DNA from: Muribaculum sp.
Lineage (GTDB): Bacteria > Bacteroidota > Bacteroidia > Bacteroidales > Muribaculaceae
DNA: 41,192 nucleotides
Direction of reading: 5' to 3'
Assembly: GCA_023666965.1 (NCBI GenBank)
Contig: JAMPAZ010000001.1
Coordinates: forward strand, 841,184-882,375
A program made the position numbers and the translations under genes. The notes under the pieces are model-generated. The model was given only the letters and a program-made list of their open reading frames with translations, had not been told where the DNA came from and did not search any database. This document shows positions 33,962 through 41,064 of the stretch, piece after piece; within the stretch, counting starts at the first letter, position 1, and each line of letters begins with the position of its first letter.

Positions 33962-35272
33962 ATGAATACTGCACCGCTACAAGGTATTAAAGTCGTTGAC
34001 TTTACAGAGGTACAATCAGGCCCTTCATGTACACAAATGTTGGCATGGCTCGGAGCTGAAGTAATTAAAATCGAACGCCCCGGAGTAGGTGATGCCACCC
34101 GTAAGGAGCTACAGTTTGATCCAAATCTGCCAAGCTACTATTATCTGCAACTTAACAGCAACAAAAAGTCTCTTACGCTTGATGCAAAGACTCCCGACGG
34201 CAAGGCTATCCTGACTAAGTTGATTCAGGGTGCCGATATTTTTGTTGAGAATCTGCATCCGGGAGCTATGGACAAGCTGGGCTTCAGCTGGGACGTTGTA
34301 CATAAGCTTAATCCTAAGTGTATCTACGGAACAATTAAGGGATTCCCCCTCTCTTCAAAATATAAAGATTTGAAGGCATACGAACCTATAGCACAAGTTA
34401 CGGCTGCCGCCGCATCAACCACCGGATGGTTTGACGGCGACTATAATATACCTACCCAGAGCGGTGCGGCGTTGGGTGACTCCAACACCGGTATGCACCT
34501 GCTGATAGGTCTGCTTGCGGCTCTTCAGCAACGCGAACGCACAGGTGAAGGATGCTACGTCTATCAGTCAATGCACAATGCATGTCTGAACCTTTGCCGT
34601 ATTAAGACACGTGACCAGCTTACTCTTGACAAGATTGGCTATTTGACCCAATTCCCGCAGTATCCTGACGAAAAGTTCGGCGACTGCGTTCCACGTTCAG
34701 GAAATACCGAAGGCGGAGGAGTGCTTGGATGGACTTATAAGTGTAAGCCTGCCGGAGGCTTGGATTCGGAAATCGATGCCAACAACTATGTCTACATTAT
34801 CCTTCAGCGTGGCGAAAAGGACTTTAAGCTCGCATGTCAGGGTCTGGGATTCGAGGACTGGCTTACGAATCCGGACTTTGCCACAGCCGATGCCCGCGAC
34901 AAGCATAAACAAGAGATATATAAGAGAATCGGCGCATGGACAGCCGACAAGACCAAGTATGAAGTGGTCGAGATACTGTCAAAGTATGGTGTGCCCGTAG
35001 GTCCGGTGCTTTCAACCAAGGAAGTTATGAGCGACGAAAGCCTTTATGACGGAAACACGCTTGTAAAGATTAACCAGGGAGGTAAGATCGGCGAATACGT
35101 GACAGTCGGATGCCCGTTCACGATGAGCAATTTCCAGCCTACTTACGAACCCGCGCCGGAGCTTGGTGCCAACACAGACGAAGTGCTGAAGGGCCTCGGC
35201 TACACCGACGCTCAAATAGCGGAGTTTGCAAAGAACGGGACCACGGAACCTATGCCCGCGGCTCAAAAGTAA
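33962..35272 (+). CDS. frc: Formyl-CoA:oxalate CoA-transferase
   Basis: A 436-residue class III CoA-transferase, starting GIKVVDFTEVQSGPSCTQMLAWLGAEVIKIE in pieces. Asp173 in GAALGDSNTG aligns with the catalytic Asp (169 in the Oxalobacter enzyme). It moves CoA from formyl-CoA to oxalate, giving oxalyl-CoA and formate. It is the first gene of an operon with oxc, 25 bases downstream, and the AEC carrier, a linkage specific to oxalate breakdown (compare the E. coli yfd cluster). CoA-transferase family members differ in substrate; the oxc partner is what makes this assignment strong. Confidence 0.94.
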   Translation: MNTAPLQGIKVVDFTEVQSGPSCTQMLAWLGAEVIKIERPGVGDATRKELQFDPNLPSYYYLQLNSNKKSLTLDAKTPDGKAILTKLIQGADIFVENLHPGAMDKLGFSWDVVHKLNPKCIYGTIKGFPLSSKYKDLKAYEPIAQVTAAAASTTGWFDGDYNIPTQSGAALGDSNTGMHLLIGLLAALQQRERTGEGCYVYQSMHNACLNLCRIKTRDQLTLDKIGYLTQFPQYPDEKFGDCVPRSGNTEGGGVLGWTYKCKPAGGLDSEIDANNYVYIILQRGEKDFKLACQGLGFEDWLTNPDFATADARDKHKQEIYKRIGAWTADKTKYEVVEILSKYGVPVGPVLSTKEVMSDESLYDGNTLVKINQGGKIGEYVTVGCPFTMSNFQPTYEPAPELGANTDEVLKGLGYTDAQIAEFAKNGTTEPMPAAQK

Positions 35273-35297
35273 CAAATCCTTAAAACATCAATATATT

Positions 35298-37028
35298 ATG
35301 GCAACAACCACAACTCCCTCGGCACCTCATTTTCCCGAACAGGTGACAGGTATGTACGTTTTGGCTCGTGCACTAAAGAACATGGGCATTGAGAATGTAT
35401 ACGGCCTCGTTGGTATTCCTATCACTGAAGCCGGTTATATGGTGCAGGGACAAGGAATACGATTCGTGGGATTCCGCCACGAACAGCAGGCCGGTATGGC
35501 GGCCGCTACCGAAGGCTATCTGACAAAGAAGCCCGGTGTGCTGATGACGGTTTCGTCGCTCGGTTTTATGAACGGACTGACCGCGACCGCAAATGCTACA
35601 GTCAACTGCTACCCGATGATTCAGATTTCGGGAGCGAGCGACCCGGCCATGGTGGACATGAACATGGGTACTTACGAACAACTCGATCAATTCAACACCG
35701 CTAAGCCGGTAGTAAAGGCTGCCTTCAGATGCAGCAAGGCCGAAGATATACCTTCGGCTGTGGCACGTGCCTACCGTGCTGCCGTCAGTGGCCGCCCCGG
35801 TGGTGTATATATCGACATGACCACTCCTGCTCTTGGGCAGATAATGAACCGCGAAGATGCTGAAAAACTCCTCTACGCGCCGGTGGACATTTATTCACCT
35901 GTAGCCCCGAATCAGGAGGCCGTAGACCGAGCCGTCGCTACAATCGCTTCGGCCAAGCGTCCGGCAATACTCCTTGGAAAGGGTGCGGCTTACGCCCAGG
36001 TCGATGACAAGATTAAAGAGCTTGTCGAGAAGTACAATATTCCGTACTTGCCTATGTCAATGGCCAAAGGTCTAATGCCTGACGACGGTCCGCTCAGCGC
36101 ACTTTCATGCCGTTCGACAATCATGGAAAAGGCCGATGTGGTAATCGTTATAGGAGCGCGTCTTAACTGGATGCTGTCATTCGGCAAGGGTAAGTGGAAT
36201 CCTGAGATGAAGTTCGTTCAACTTGACGTTGAACCTCAGGAGATTGATGTCAATGTGCCGATAGCCGCTCCTGTCGTTGGCGATATGGGCTTGTCGCTTG
36301 ACGCTATTCTGGGAAAACTCTCAACGGTCAAGATGAGCGCCAACCCGACATGGGTCACTTCGCTTCAAGCCGAGGCCAAAGAGAAAAATGCGAAATTTGC
36401 GGCACGTATCGACGGTGCTAAAAATGCATCTCCAATGAATCATTGGACAGCTTTGGGCGCCATAAAGCCGATACTTGAAGCAAATAAAGACTTGATATTT
36501 GTCAATGAAGGAGCCAATACTCTTGACGACGCACGAGATGCCATCAATATGAGCTTGCCTCGACGCCGTGTCGATTGCGCTACCTGGGCCATCATGGGTA
36601 TGGGCATGGGTTCGGCCATCGGAGCGGCTGTGGCAACGGGTAAGAGTGTCGTGGCTTTGGAAGGCGACAGCGCATTCGGCTTCTCCGGAATGGACTTCAG
36701 TACCATCTGCCGGTTCAAATTGCCGGTGACTGTAATCATATTCAATAACGGCGGTATTTATAACGGAATCGGAGTCCCGATGGACAAGACGACGGATCCG
36801 GCTCCGACAACTCTTGACATAAATGCCCGTTATGACAAGCTCGGCGATGCATTCGGCGCACAGACATATTATGTCACCACTCCGGACGAGTTGTCAAAGG
36901 CTTTGACTGAGTCAATAGCCTCAAAGAAGCCTTGTCTTATCGATGTCCAGTTAGGCGCAGACTCCGGAAAGGAGAGCGGCCATATCGGTTATCTTAATCC
37001 GGCTCCGCTCCAGGATATAACAGTATAG
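35298..37028 (+). CDS. oxc: Oxalyl-CoA decarboxylase
   Basis: A 576-residue thiamine-diphosphate enzyme. Glu62 in FRHEQQAGMAAATEG is the cofactor-activating Glu. The thiamine-binding motif runs LEGDSAFGFSGMDF to IIFNNGGIYNG. It decarboxylates oxalyl-CoA to formyl-CoA, which frc reuses, so the two close a catalytic cycle giving formate and CO2. The start MATTTTPSAPHFPEQ at 35298 was chosen since the longer frame at 35226 lies within frc. The AEC carrier follows 59 bases later. Confidence 0.95.
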   Translation: MATTTTPSAPHFPEQVTGMYVLARALKNMGIENVYGLVGIPITEAGYMVQGQGIRFVGFRHEQQAGMAAATEGYLTKKPGVLMTVSSLGFMNGLTATANATVNCYPMIQISGASDPAMVDMNMGTYEQLDQFNTAKPVVKAAFRCSKAEDIPSAVARAYRAAVSGRPGGVYIDMTTPALGQIMNREDAEKLLYAPVDIYSPVAPNQEAVDRAVATIASAKRPAILLGKGAAYAQVDDKIKELVEKYNIPYLPMSMAKGLMPDDGPLSALSCRSTIMEKADVVIVIGARLNWMLSFGKGKWNPEMKFVQLDVEPQEIDVNVPIAAPVVGDMGLSLDAILGKLSTVKMSANPTWVTSLQAEAKEKNAKFAARIDGAKNASPMNHWTALGAIKPILEANKDLIFVNEGANTLDDARDAINMSLPRRRVDCATWAIMGMGMGSAIGAAVATGKSVVALEGDSAFGFSGMDFSTICRFKLPVTVIIFNNGGIYNGIGVPMDKTTDPAPTTLDINARYDKLGDAFGAQTYYVTTPDELSKALTESIASKKPCLIDVQLGADSGKESGHIGYLNPAPLQDITV

Positions 37029-37087
37029 GACTTCGGGTATCGACAACTATATTTTTTAGGCATTATAAATCTAAAATTTCGTAAATT

Positions 37088-38062
37088 ATGGTACACATAT
37101 TCCTATATGCCATTGTCCCGATCATCGTAGTGATGCTTGCGGGATACATATCCGGTAAGAAAGGGATGTTTACTGGAGGCGACGCCAAGGCATTCAATAA
37201 GGTTGTGCTGGACTTCGCATTGCCGGCAGCCCTGTTCGTGTCAATCGTTGACGCGAATCGAGAGATGCTCGTTCACGATTTGAAGCTCACAATGATTTCG
37301 CTTGTCGTGATCATGGGGTGTTTCATGCTCGTCTATTTTATCTATAAATACTGTTTTAAGCAGAACACCGGTGCCGACGCGGCAATCATGGCGTTGATTA
37401 GCGGTTCGCCAACGATAGGATTCCTTGGTTTTGCCGTTTTGGAGCCGATTTTCGGAACGACGCCTTACGTCGCGCTGGTTGTGGCAATTGTAGGAATTGT
37501 GGTAAATGCTGTCGGTATTCCGGTTGGACTATCTCTTTTGAATGCCAGCAATGAAAAGCTGCATCCTGTGGCAGCCGGCCAAAAACGGCCGAGCGCATGG
37601 AAGCCGGTGATTCACGCGTTGGAACAGCCGGTTGCTTGGGCACCTATATTGGCCGTTATTTGGGTAGCGGCAGGGATTCCTTGGCCGAAATGGGCAAGTC
37701 CGTCGTTTGATTTGATTAAGGGAGCCAATGCGTCAATGGCAGTGTTCGCGGCCGGTGTAACGCTGTCGGCAGTAAAAATCACTATCAATTGGCAAGGTAT
37801 ACTCGGATGTATCCTTAAGCTTATCGTAATGCCTGCCGCGCTTTTGATAGTTGGCATGATATTCCACATGGATCCGCTTAATCTGAAGATGCTTGTAGTG
37901 GCAGGTGCACTTCCTCCGGCATTTTCGGGCGTCATTATTGCCAGTCAATATGACACATACGTAGCGACCGGAACATCGTCGCTGGCATTGAGCGTAATCC
38001 TCTTTATCGTGTTTTGTCCGCTTTGGATTTGGATAACCGATTTGGCACTCAAGATGGCATAG
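37088..38062 (+). CDS. AEC-family carrier, probable oxalate/formate transporter
   Basis: A 324-residue membrane protein with ten hydrophobic segments in a two-half (5+5) layout characteristic of the auxin-efflux-carrier family (MVHIFLYAIVPIIVVMLAGY; DFALPAALFVSIVDANRE; GALPPAFSGVIIASQYDT). Its place directly after frc and oxc, as YfdV is in E. coli, suggests oxalate import or oxalate/formate exchange. This is inferred from context and the family alone; OxlT-type exchangers in Oxalobacter belong to another family. The operon ends near the hairpin at 38104-38139. Confidence 0.88.
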   Translation: MVHIFLYAIVPIIVVMLAGYISGKKGMFTGGDAKAFNKVVLDFALPAALFVSIVDANREMLVHDLKLTMISLVVIMGCFMLVYFIYKYCFKQNTGADAAIMALISGSPTIGFLGFAVLEPIFGTTPYVALVVAIVGIVVNAVGIPVGLSLLNASNEKLHPVAAGQKRPSAWKPVIHALEQPVAWAPILAVIWVAAGIPWPKWASPSFDLIKGANASMAVFAAGVTLSAVKITINWQGILGCILKLIVMPAALLIVGMIFHMDPLNLKMLVVAGALPPAFSGVIIASQYDTYVATGTSSLALSVILFIVFCPLWIWITDLALKMA

Positions 38063-38139: not shown

Positions 38140-38230
38140 CAATATCTTTGCCTATGACTAATAAGGTGAGAAATTAATATTAATAGGACACTGAACTTGA
38201 TTATAAGTCCATATCATAATCAGCAAGCTC

Positions 38231-39298
38231 TCAGTCTTTTGGATATGAGATAATCAAAACTTCACGGGAAGTGGTGTCGCTCAAAGCATATTTAATATTT
38301 CCGGAATATTTCACCTCATTGTATCTACCTTGATTATTTAATAGGTGTAATATACTTTCTATAGACGGAATACCATTTGACCTATACGAAAACACGATTG
38401 TGCTATGCTTGAAATTTTGTATCAGCCGTTCAAACCCGTTGATTATGCGCGCCTTATCGTTCCATATCGAATAGGAACGTTTAAGTCTATGGTGCTTACT
38501 TTTATAATCGATCAAATTAATCCAATTATCGTAGCACAATAACCCATTCAAAAAATGGTAAAAATCAGCATAATCTACACCGATACCTTTACTATTTAGA
38601 TAAGGAGTATCTATATAGACCAAATCAAATTTATTTGTAATGTCCAGTGCATCTTGATTAAGCGAAACACATTTCACACCATTACTGAAAATGGCTCTAT
38701 TCGCTTCTTCAATAAAATTTCTGAAATGTTGTTCAAAAGGTGTATCCCATGTTTTCTTATTTCCAAAAGAACGTTCAACGTCAGACATTCTGACATACAA
38801 ATTCTTCCTATGGAACAGATTATATGGTCTCTTAATTATACATGACTGAAAAAGGGCAAACCATGCCAAAGACCGTTTGTATTCGTCATCTATATTTGCG
38901 ATATTATAACGCACAACGTCTAACCAGTGATTCTCTTCGTCGGTATAATAAATATCTTTGAAATTATCCGCTATAACTGAAGGGTATATAATTCCCGGCT
39001 TTTCAGTCAAAATATCATTTACTTCAACATCAGTAATAGTTTCATTGTCATTTTCAATAATAGCCTTTCCAATCGTAAAATTGAACGGTAGTATATCATT
39101 GTAAGTGACCTGTTTCCCCTCATCTTTTAACCGATACGCGACAGATCCAGTCCCTCCAAAGGCATCCAATACAGTAGAAAACTCGATGGGTGAAATTTCA
39201 TTCCAGATCCAATCTACAAATTTTGATTTGCTACCTTGGTATCTTGTAGAAGGAAAAACATTTTTCTGCTTTATTTCAGGAAAAAGAGAATATTCCAT
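38231..39298 (-). CDS. DNA adenine methyltransferase (D12 class), likely GATATC-specific
   Basis: A 355-residue N6-adenine methylase of the alpha/D12 (Dam-like) class. TRYQGSKSKFVDWI at ~18-31 is the motif X-type N-terminus, FGGTG (47-51) is the S-adenosylmethionine motif I, and DTPY (230-233) is the catalytic motif IV, a known variant of DPPY. The gene begins two bases after the stop of the nuclease gene, so both are one transcript with the nuclease first. By pairing with the EcoRV-like nuclease it should protect GATATC by methylating an adenine. Composition is much AT-richer than the oxalate operon, suggesting acquisition by transfer. Confidence 0.9.
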   Translation of the reverse strand: MEYSLFPEIKQKNVFPSTRYQGSKSKFVDWIWNEISPIEFSTVLDAFGGTGSVAYRLKDEGKQVTYNDILPFNFTIGKAIIENDNETITDVEVNDILTEKPGIIYPSVIADNFKDIYYTDEENHWLDVVRYNIANIDDEYKRSLAWFALFQSCIIKRPYNLFHRKNLYVRMSDVERSFGNKKTWDTPFEQHFRNFIEEANRAIFSNGVKCVSLNQDALDITNKFDLVYIDTPYLNSKGIGVDYADFYHFLNGLLCYDNWINLIDYKSKHHRLKRSYSIWNDKARIINGFERLIQNFKHSTIVFSYRSNGIPSIESILHLLNNQGRYNEVKYSGNIKYALSDTTSREVLIISYPKD

Positions 39299-39299
39299 T

Positions 39300-40076
39300 T
39301 TATTCTAATTTGCGAAAAACCTTATAGGACGACAAATCATGGTAATATGGAGAAACTAACTCAGCCCGTTTCGCCATATCTGGTGTAAGAAAGTTTGTCC
39401 AATAGTCATCAAAAACATCTTCTCCTAAATTTGAAAAGGGACCATTGCCATTCATTAGATCATCTATGTTTGACACTGAACCAATATTTTTCGTATTGCC
39501 ACTTCCAGGACGATCAATCGCAATACGCCACTTTTCTTGAACGAAAAATGTAATATCCTTTATGACCGATATGATATCAGACAATTGATTGATTGAATAA
39601 TTAATACGTTCATCACCGTGGGGATTTTCACTATATATTATCCCCAGGACTACATGTGCCTTATATTCGCTATATGGATGAGTAACGTTCTTAGAGCTTT
39701 TTCGGTTCCTAAAATAACCTGTGAAAGCTCCAAGAGTCATTCCGTTAATTCTGCTTGGACTTTTCCGATAACTACTCTTTAAATCTACGGCAAACAAATT
39801 ACCTTTATCATCTTTAAAGGTCACATCCGGATAAAAATTTTGTTCTTTGGTTAATTCTAAGACAAGGTTGTTATCAACCGCAAACTTATTTAAAAGAGGG
39901 AAAATGTAAAGTTCTATTATTTTTGAGATAACTTTAGTGTCATTCGAAACAGTATATATACGTTTATAAATGTCAATAAAACCCTTGACTACCCATTGAC
40001 CGTCATCAGTCATAACATGTGACGAGAAAGAATTTACGGCATTGCGTAGATTCAGTATAAAAGATTCCTTATCCAT
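39300..40076 (-). CDS. EcoRV-like type II restriction endonuclease
   Basis: A 258-residue protein that resembles EcoRV along its core. Compared from memory: NDTKVISKIIELYIFPLLNKFA matches EcoRV's SDTKVLSTIFEL; NFYPDVTF matches NHYPDFTL; AVDLKSS matches AIDIKTT; and DRPGSGNTKNIGS matches DLAGSGNTTNIGS. The catalytic set is Glu55, Asp84, Asp98 and Lys100 (EcoRV E45, D74, D90, K92). The recognition loop GSGNTK at 191-196 differs from EcoRV's only in its last residue. It should cut GATATC as a homodimer with Mg2+. It is the first gene of a two-gene unit with the methylase and has a -7 box 4 bases from its ATG. No controller gene is seen. Confidence 0.88.
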   Translation of the reverse strand: MDKESFILNLRNAVNSFSSHVMTDDGQWVVKGFIDIYKRIYTVSNDTKVISKIIELYIFPLLNKFAVDNNLVLELTKEQNFYPDVTFKDDKGNLFAVDLKSSYRKSPSRINGMTLGAFTGYFRNRKSSKNVTHPYSEYKAHVVLGIIYSENPHGDERINYSINQLSDIISVIKDITFFVQEKWRIAIDRPGSGNTKNIGSVSNIDDLMNGNGPFSNLGEDVFDDYWTNFLTPDMAKRAELVSPYYHDLSSYKVFRKLE

Positions 40077-40080
40077 AACA

Positions 40081-40088
40081 CAAAGTTA
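40081..40088 (-). promoter_or_regulatory. -7 box immediately before the nuclease gene
   Basis: TAACTTTG on the minus strand ends 4 bases before the ATG at 40076, again predicting a leaderless or nearly leaderless transcript. No TTG at the usual -33 spacing was found in the AT-rich upstream sequence. Confidence 0.5.
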
Positions 40089-40146
40089 CTAATATTATTT
40101 CATAAATATATTTAGTAAAAGAATTTTCACCTTCATCTCTACAAGT

Positions 40147-41064
40147 TTAGTTTATCAAGGTGGAGGATATTTTGGATAGCGGGGCGTCTTTTAGGATTAC
40201 TGTTCCTTGCGGGTCGAGCAGGTAGATGACGGGCATCTCGGGGAAACTGTATTTGTCGGATTCCGACAAGTCGGCAAAAGCATCTGTCCATTCTGATGGG
40301 ATTTTGGCAAGTGCATCGTCTGCCTGCCAAATGTCGGCCTCACCGAATGGGTAAACGGCGATGACATTTATCTTTTCTGACTCAATCAGGTGGTTAAGCT
40401 CCGGGTCGGTCTTTAATTCCATAATTGTCTCAGCACAATGATCGCAGTCAGGATCGTAGAACATCAGGATAGTGGGGCGTCCGACAGAAAATTCGTGCAT
40501 ACCCACAGTCGATCCATTGCGGAGGCGCATCCGGAAGTCGGCGGACACGGTGCCGACTCTGTTGCGCAGAGTCTCTTCGAGCATATATTGGGGTCGGATG
40601 CGCTCGGCATCGGAAAGAATTGGAGATTTGACTATCGCTTGGACAAATGGGATGAAGAGTTCCTCCTCGCGCATAGGTGACCCCGGTTCATACAGGTAGT
40701 GCTCGGCAATCTCGGCAACGAGATTAAAAGCGGTTTTGTCAGTCGATACGATATTCATCAAATTAGATACTGCGGTTTCGCGGCCGGAGACTGAGGCGTG
40801 AGGCATTACGGAGAAAAAATTAACAAGGTTTTGCTCCATAAAAGCATAATCGTGGCTTTTAGCAGTATCTGAAAAATCCATAGAATCCCAAAAATGAAGA
40901 AGTATATAGTCGGCTCTGTTTACAGTGTCGGTCATTCCATCAGGGTCTTTCGGGAGGGTAAGTTCCTCGACAGAAGTGACTTCGTGAGACGGAAGCGCTA
41001 AAGTCGATACGGTTGAGAGAGTCATGGCCGCAGTTGCCGCGATTGTAAAAAGTATGCGTTTCAT
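40147..41064 (-). CDS. Exported thioredoxin-fold protein (TlpA/DUF5106-like)
   Basis: A 305-residue protein with a signal peptide (MKRILFTIAATAAMTLSTVSTLA). The N-terminal half (~40-170) is helical and resembles the DUF5106 domain found in Bacteroidetes before a thioredoxin fold. The C-terminal half is thioredoxin-like with an active-site motif CDHC (207-210) in TILMFYDPDCDHCAETIMELK in pieces, and a cis-Pro segment (FPEMPVIYLLDPQG). It probably reduces or exchanges disulfides in the periplasm. It lies upstream of the nuclease gene with 70 bases between and downstream of a gene cut by the window edge. Confidence 0.85.
   Translation of the reverse strand: MKRILFTIAATAAMTLSTVSTLALPSHEVTSVEELTLPKDPDGMTDTVNRADYILLHFWDSMDFSDTAKSHDYAFMEQNLVNFFSVMPHASVSGRETAVSNLMNIVSTDKTAFNLVAEIAEHYLYEPGSPMREEELFIPFVQAIVKSPILSDAERIRPQYMLEETLRNRVGTVSADFRMRLRNGSTVGMHEFSVGRPTILMFYDPDCDHCAETIMELKTDPELNHLIESEKINVIAVYPFGEADIWQADDALAKIPSEWTDAFADLSESDKYSFPEMPVIYLLDPQGTVILKDAPLSKISSTLIN

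Follow-up and report, generated by a model that had tools for sequence, protein, structure and literature searches.

Locus architecture and horizontal acquisition

On the reverse strand of the DNA analysed here (a stretch of 41,192 nucleotides from a Muribaculum sp. contig, hereafter the window) a nuclease gene is followed by a methylase gene (Table 1), in the order given by the original prediction, with one base between them where two had been counted. We interpret the pair as a type IIP restriction-modification system, carried on the chromosome as a cassette about 1.9 kb long and acquired horizontally; the transfer, formerly suspected from AT-rich composition, is supported by GC content (0.34 in both cassette genes vs 0.50 and 0.48 in the flanking genes), patchy distribution and a break in synteny. 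Homology to the same-genus genome G132 runs through three genes (the last encoding a transporter, 37088-38062), breaks off at 38140 and starts again at 40213, within the following gene. Homology to the cassette relative L002 spans 38235-40105, which places either border of the acquired piece within a zone of about 100 bases.

Table 1. Features of the cassette and its borders (window coordinates).
Feature	Position	Strand	Basis
D12-class N6-adenine DNA methyltransferase, 355 aa, motif IV DTPY	38231..39298	-	PF02086, alignments
Single base between nuclease stop and methylase start	39299..39299	-	ORF coordinates
EcoRV-family type II restriction endonuclease, 258 aa	39300..40076	-	PF09233, PDB EcoRV chains, aligned residues
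Predicted promoter element, Bacteroidales -7 box TAACTTTG, beginning 12 bases upstream of the nuclease ATG	40081..40088	-	spacing in relatives
Left border zone, taking in the methylase stop codon	38141..38234	.	homology limits vs G132 and L002
Right border zone	40106..40212	.	homology limits vs L002 and G132

Among the closest counterparts are four cassettes of related gut bacteria (L002, L003, L004 and L007, the last from Muribaculum caecicola NM86_A22), whose nucleases are 73-77% and methylases 71-73% identical to those of the window and whose gene order and promoter-box spacing are the same. In the genome G144 the pair and the transporter gene, neighbours in the window, are on different contigs. 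G132 was considered as an empty insertion site and rejected, since it has the same left and right neighbours but carries between them a 2090-aa gene with a GLUG motif. The neighbours of the cassette at 33962-38062, presumably an oxalate degradation set (formyl-CoA transferase, oxalyl-CoA decarboxylase and transporter), are shared with G132 at 89-97%.

An EcoRV-family nuclease with conserved reading residues

The nuclease matched Endonuc-EcoRV (PF09233) in the Pfam search (E 7.5e-103, profile positions 2-244 of 244), and the EcoRV chains were its only strong matches in the PDB (E about 1e-38; next E 0.13), with 35% identity to the plasmid-borne EcoRV. Its residues E55, D84, D98 and K100 align with EcoRV E45, D74, D90 and K92, its GSGNT with EcoRV 182-186, and its Q79-N80 with Q69-N70, EcoRV Q68 being replaced by Glu. 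As judged from these alignments, the window nuclease is an EcoRV-family enzyme that possesses both the catalytic Glu/Asp/Asp/Lys set and the recognition loop. The family, the catalytic positions, the exactly kept loop and the nearly kept Q-loop had all been named in the original prediction, which as an observation is confirmed (the match lies far beyond chance), and as an interpretation is partly supported.

We read 81 aligned rows against EcoRV, divided by methylase partner into 43 window-type (the window and 42 relatives, five split nucleases having been dropped) and 38 M.EcoRV-type rows (33 genome and 5 plasmid loci, EcoRV itself kept apart); the placement of the recognition loop at the DNA was judged by alignment alone. 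Identical in 81/81 rows were K38, E45, Q69, Y72, P73, D74, K92, G182, G184, N185, T186 and N188, and D90, N70 and S183 showed one deviating row each. The GSGNT.N loop and the minor-groove Q69-N70 are thus kept in 43/43 window-type rows, and in the 38 M.EcoRV-type rows with the exception of one N70 and one S183. The Lys at the end of the loop (window K196, aligned with EcoRV T187), which had been taken for a changed residue, turned out to follow the family: position 187 is Lys in 43/43 window-type rows, and the 38 M.EcoRV-type rows have 27 Arg, 6 Lys, 2 Ala, 2 Glu and 1 Thr, so that Lys or Arg is the norm and EcoRV's own Thr the exception.

A methylase of another D12 lineage

The methylase belongs to the D12 class (PF02086, E 6.8e-19 in the Pfam search), but the earlier view of it as the counterpart of EcoRV's own methylase did not hold: it has no blastp match to M.EcoRV at E 1e-4, a profile of 23 window-type methylases and one of 19 M.EcoRV-type methylases align over just 47 columns (probability 81.5), and motif IV is DTPY in 23/23 of the former (from several bacterial phyla and an archaeon) vs DPPY in 19/19 of the latter. 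On these comparisons, the window methylase is assigned to a D12 lineage distinct from that of M.EcoRV. DPPY is the typical D12 motif IV and variants of it are also known, so DTPY does not exclude D12 membership; in alignment it is an unusual motif IV, by which the window enzyme departs from DPPY. A PDB search with the methylase profile gave no match at E 0.01.

DPPY is present in 17 of another 18 methylases related to that of the window, including the second halves of three AlwI-type fused enzymes and the single methylases L090-L092 of other bacteria (32-38% identical to that of the window). The AlwI-type halves (L088, L089 and L093) match the window methylase at 31-33% identity (E about 1e-47 to 1e-50); they belong, however, to two-domain fused enzymes with DPPY whose neighbour is a type IIS nuclease (tested as RE_AlwI for L089, by annotation for L088 and L093), whereas the window pair has a single-domain methylase beside an EcoRV-family nuclease and is thus no AlwI-type system. 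The sole DTPY enzyme among the 18 (L132, 39% identity) lies near an AAA ATPase gene in the genome G186, which is not among the family carriers of the PF09233 nuclease.

Two methylase partners for one nuclease family

A pattern-based scan of the genome collection, in which 108 nuclease relatives were confirmed and the best 80 kept (L002-L081), revealed that every one of these 80 loci has a same-strand methylase of either type (47 window-like and 33 M.EcoRV-like, proportions that are not those of nature because the loci were found by similarity to the window nuclease). No methylase among the 80 genome and the plasmid nuclease loci matched both queries (blastp, E 1e-4), only the fused comparison enzymes L088 and L089 doing so, and the six plasmid systems (EcoRV included) have an M.EcoRV-type methylase. 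In 75/80 kept loci the methylase starts within 60 bases of the nuclease frame end, the exceptions being two loci whose nuclease frame is split (L006 and L008), two with wider gaps (124 bases in L021, 1129 bases in L029) and the fusion in L051. Since the window methylase is of another D12 lineage, EcoRV-type nucleases are paired in nature with two methylase lineages. In the last of the exceptions above, from a candidate division KSB1 genome (L051:3403-5277), one 625-aa frame joins an EcoRV-type nuclease to a window-type methylase, a fusion that is possibly a natural single-chain enzyme.

The nuclease tree (76 rows, with the six long or odd rows L042, L043, L082, L085, L086 and L087 dropped) needs three changes of partner type, two of which are forced by the starred branches, and one-change trees were found in 0/200 bootstraps. 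As the AU test did not reject a single split of partner types (p 0.31), one methylase change in the past of the family is required and more than one is not claimed; recurrent partner exchange was considered and set aside on the same ground.

The EcoRV system of the Escherichia coli plasmid pLG13 (L082) shares with the window cassette the nuclease family, the catalytic residues, the recognition loop and the likely target, but there a helix-turn-helix (controller) gene precedes the nuclease, and the methylase, of the other lineage, is divergently transcribed; the window cassette has two genes, nuclease first, a window-type methylase and no relative of plasmid C proteins. Nuclease-first pairs with an M.EcoRV-type methylase, from Bacteroidales and others (L046-L050 and L052-L066 among them), share order and nuclease family with the window cassette and, like it, have no relatives of four controller proteins (E 1e-3), yet differ in their M.EcoRV-type methylase with DPPY. 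In open-licence PubMed Central papers (REBASE being outside the search) we found no description of a window-type methylase beside an EcoRV-type nuclease. On the evidence of the sequences the pair is best filed as a variant in which an EcoRV-family nuclease is combined with a methylase of the other D12 lineage, a controller of any known kind is missing, and the nuclease mRNA, as in the nearest relatives, is predicted to be leaderless. EcoRV is a textbook nuclease, and the relatives suggest that the same kind of cutter is paired with two different protectors.

Distribution in the host's family

Of the 297 genomes drawn from the host's family (14 of them from its genus, with G000 as the host), 16 have a PF09233 match, including 2/14 in the genus (G000 and G144). 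Search of the flanks assigned a window-type partner to 10 carriers and an M.EcoRV-type partner to 5; G146, whose match is cut, stayed unassigned. The same nuclease family, its reading residues nearly unchanged, is thus found with two methylase lineages inside one bacterial family (10 and 5 genomes), so that methylase replacement and convergence on one target become directly testable.

In a search of the 297 genomes with the window-type methylase profile, 25 genomes matched at E 1e-30: nine of the 10 carriers scored 572-620 bits, G036 gave two pieces (343 and 257 bits) on two contigs, and below the carriers came G186 (338 bits) and 14 genomes at 153-195 bits, among them G146, where the methylase match is on another contig than the nuclease fragment. 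All 10 genomes with a window-type methylase carry an EcoRV-type nuclease beside it; the 47 window-type loci of the wider scan do not test such strict pairing, because it was the nuclease that led to them. The nuclease match is interrupted by stop codons in three of the 10 window-type carriers (G036, G054 and G073), in G146 and in 0/5 M.EcoRV-type carriers; these stops may reflect decay or errors of draft assembly. At the three window-type loci (L107, L101 and L098, respectively) the stops in the nuclease lie beside stop-free methylase frames (that of G036 being cut by the contig end): either the nuclease decayed first or the drafts contain errors.

GATATC as the likely target

Counts over 400 kb of host sequence (L148-L167 of G000) gave 42 GATATC sites vs 121.8 expected from the inner words of the site (O/E 0.34), which makes it the third lowest of 64 palindromes by z, and in two same-genus genomes without the nuclease O/E is 0.86 (G092, rank 37) and 0.55 (G057, rank 3). 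GAGCTC and GACGTC are likewise scarce in the host. CATATG (9 vs 104.5 expected) and GCATGC (7 vs 78.7) show a still stronger deficit than GATATC, a hint that the host has or once had further restriction systems.

Across whole genomes the median number of GATATC sites per Mb is 126 for window-type carriers (10 genomes), 188 for M.EcoRV-type carriers (5 genomes) and 311 for non-carriers (22 genomes). The non-carriers comprise the 12 from the genus plus 10 more that we picked from the 281; G146 was left out, and sizes of the other genomes are rounded. The deficit of window-type carriers relative to non-carriers (one-sided p 0.0012, kinship ignored) was the strongest of 10 words and persisted after normalisation to the other nine (p 0.016, kinship again ignored), while the M.EcoRV-type carriers showed no group effect (p 0.26). 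GAGCTC, CATATG and GACGTC are also lower in carriers (p 0.018 to 0.039; GAGCTC 0.018, GACGTC 0.039), and GAATTC shows no carrier effect (p 0.25). By GATATC density the two carriers of the genus take the lowest and third-lowest places among its 14 genomes, the carrier G144 (144 per Mb) being not below the non-carrier G037 (141). Site avoidance is described as following long residence and persisting as a trace of lost systems (PMC4687349), so that some scarcity of GATATC in a non-carrier is no contradiction.

In EcoRV the central base pairs of GATATC are without direct major-groove contact (PMC4081073), and the centre of the site is for this reason not fixed by the conserved loop residues. As the reading residues are near-invariant in both partner sets, GATATC nevertheless remains the best target, and the original prediction of it as the likely target is supported by the 81 aligned rows: judging from sequence conservation, the nuclease most likely cuts unmethylated GATATC as EcoRV does, for which the scarcity of the site in the host is no more than indirect support. 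For a gut isolate of Bacteroides acidifaciens, a preprint (PMC12694586) reports eight methylated motifs and a plasmid whose transfer was allowed by removing its single methylated motif, and its methods name a changed GATATC; that the removed motif was GATATC is our own reading, made by joining these two passages. In practice GATATC may act as a barrier to the transfer of plasmids into certain gut Bacteroidales. The cassettes themselves contain GATATC at scattered positions, to which we attach no meaning.

Promoter position and the problem of establishment

Relatives of four plasmid controller (C) proteins were found neither in the window, in agreement with the earlier claim that no controller gene is present, nor in L002-L081 (the best 80 of 108 loci), at E 1e-3 in a search that unrelated controllers would escape and in which some loci have little upstream DNA. 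Since no relatives of known controllers were found in these 80 loci, the question of how a new host survives establishment applies to the family at large. These loci pose the problem plainly, and the conserved position of the promoter offers a concrete hypothesis.

The -7 box starts exactly 12 bases before the nuclease ATG in 10/10 distinct window-like loci inspected (methylase 69-73% identical to that of the window), namely the window, L002, L003, L004, L006, L007, L008, L099, L101 and L107, and reads TAACTTTG throughout except for TATCTTTG in L099. Only five of the ten (the window, L002, L003, L004 and L007) are in the tree, as a starred group; upstream of L094, L096 and L097 the sequence is that of L003, L004 and L002, and these three are not added to the ten, and L095 and L098 (family copies) as well as L005 and L022 (split frames) were left out. 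As background, 3/275 host ORFs read have a box at the 12-base spacing, one of them presumably the nuclease itself. A box stands at 32 in L100 (methylase 60% identical), and in the 12 loci L009-L020 it is found 27-32 bases upstream in nine and is missing within 60 bases in three, so a leaderless start is not a general solution.

In B. thetaiotaomicron the Bacteroidales box is placed at the -7 region, and about 3.7% of 5' leaders are under 10 bases (PMC7366714). With a box for the -7 region 12 bases before the ATG, the nuclease mRNA is predicted to start at or next to the ATG, and from box position a leaderless nuclease mRNA is predicted in the window and its nearest relatives. Leaderless C-gene transcripts are described in other systems and have been associated with reduced initiation of translation in E. 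coli (PMC4824078 and PMC5333194), the latter describing the C transcript of the EcoRV system as not leaderless; there the feature belongs to the controller gene, and here it would lie on the nuclease itself. We infer that a leaderless start would delay the nuclease. A search by box pattern for an internal methylase promoter found a box at nuclease base 189, common to several relatives, which may simply follow from the amino acids.

Preferred reading and its rivals

From the families, residues, partner split, gene order, promoter-box spacing and borders read in the sequence, we consider the locus (with a probability of about 0.78) to be an acquired type IIP cassette in which a GATATC nuclease is combined with a D12 methylase of the other lineage and a predicted leaderless nuclease mRNA may serve as an aid to timing. 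The nuclease would cut unmethylated GATATC in the manner of EcoRV and the methylase would methylate an adenine of the same site. A single promoter ahead of the nuclease probably reads both genes, and since it would abut the nuclease start codon the nuclease mRNA would be leaderless in the window and its nearest relatives. If the nuclease is poorly translated from such an mRNA and initiation at the methylase is internal, the methylase could gain a lead in a newly entered cell with no need of a controller. A more ambitious version, which we regard as tentative and on balance doubtful, holds that two separate D12 lineages, swapped as partners, guard the same nuclease, that the DTPY motif of the window methylase works (perhaps on a different adenine of GATATC) and that in the window and its nearest relatives the conserved leaderless mRNA replaces the controller as timer, letting the methylase act first.

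The rival to which we give most weight concerns the promoter: the box before the ATG may be no working promoter and transcription may come from further upstream with an ordinary leader. We regard this as a serious though unlikely alternative: the leaderless start is predicted from a box match and the boxes of nine of the 12 loci L009-L020 lie further upstream, but the spacing is identical in all ten window-like loci while the surrounding bases vary, and few host ORFs (3/275, one presumably the nuclease) have a box at that place. Less probable by a clear margin is that the nuclease keeps the outer contacts of EcoRV (GA...TC) with a different or looser centre, the methylase reflecting the changed target. 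The indirect reading of the centre by EcoRV (PMC4081073), the scarcity of GAGCTC and GACGTC in the host and their lower density in carriers, and the different methylase lineage would all fit such a change, which is opposed by loops and a catalytic site that are near-invariant over both partner types (K38, Q69, N70, N185, T186 and N188) and by GATATC showing the strongest carrier effect of the 10 words, with none for GAATTC.

Equally improbable, in our view, is a methylase motif that is shorter or different while including GATATC, which would make protection broader than restriction; relatives of the methylase outside the pairing (AlwI-type halves and a methylase beside a DpnII-like nuclease) do have other targets, but 10/10 genomes with a window-type methylase (of 297) pair it with an EcoRV-type nuclease. 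We give very little weight to the proposal that the pair is decaying and inactive in the host, with DTPY as the mark of a weakened methylase. The stops in the nucleases of 3/10 family carriers and the departure from the DPPY of 17/18 other related methylases could be read in this manner; both window genes are nonetheless intact, DTPY is invariant in 23/23 window-type methylases across several bacterial phyla and an archaeon, and a nuclease that is active while its methylase fails should kill the cell.

Related methylases in other gene neighbourhoods

The window methylase matches PADLOC mad2 (E 3.3e-8). In G186 (L209:1-12663) the DTPY methylase, 39% identical to that of the window, is clustered with an AAA ATPase gene, and this cluster may be a MADS-like defence island, a name that we use as a lead only. 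At further loci in genomes of the family (L133, L135-L143 and L146) a related methylase adjoins an ORF of about 360-380 aa; the one tested (L136) had no Pfam match, many start near FEKWD, and this ORF may represent an undescribed nuclease.
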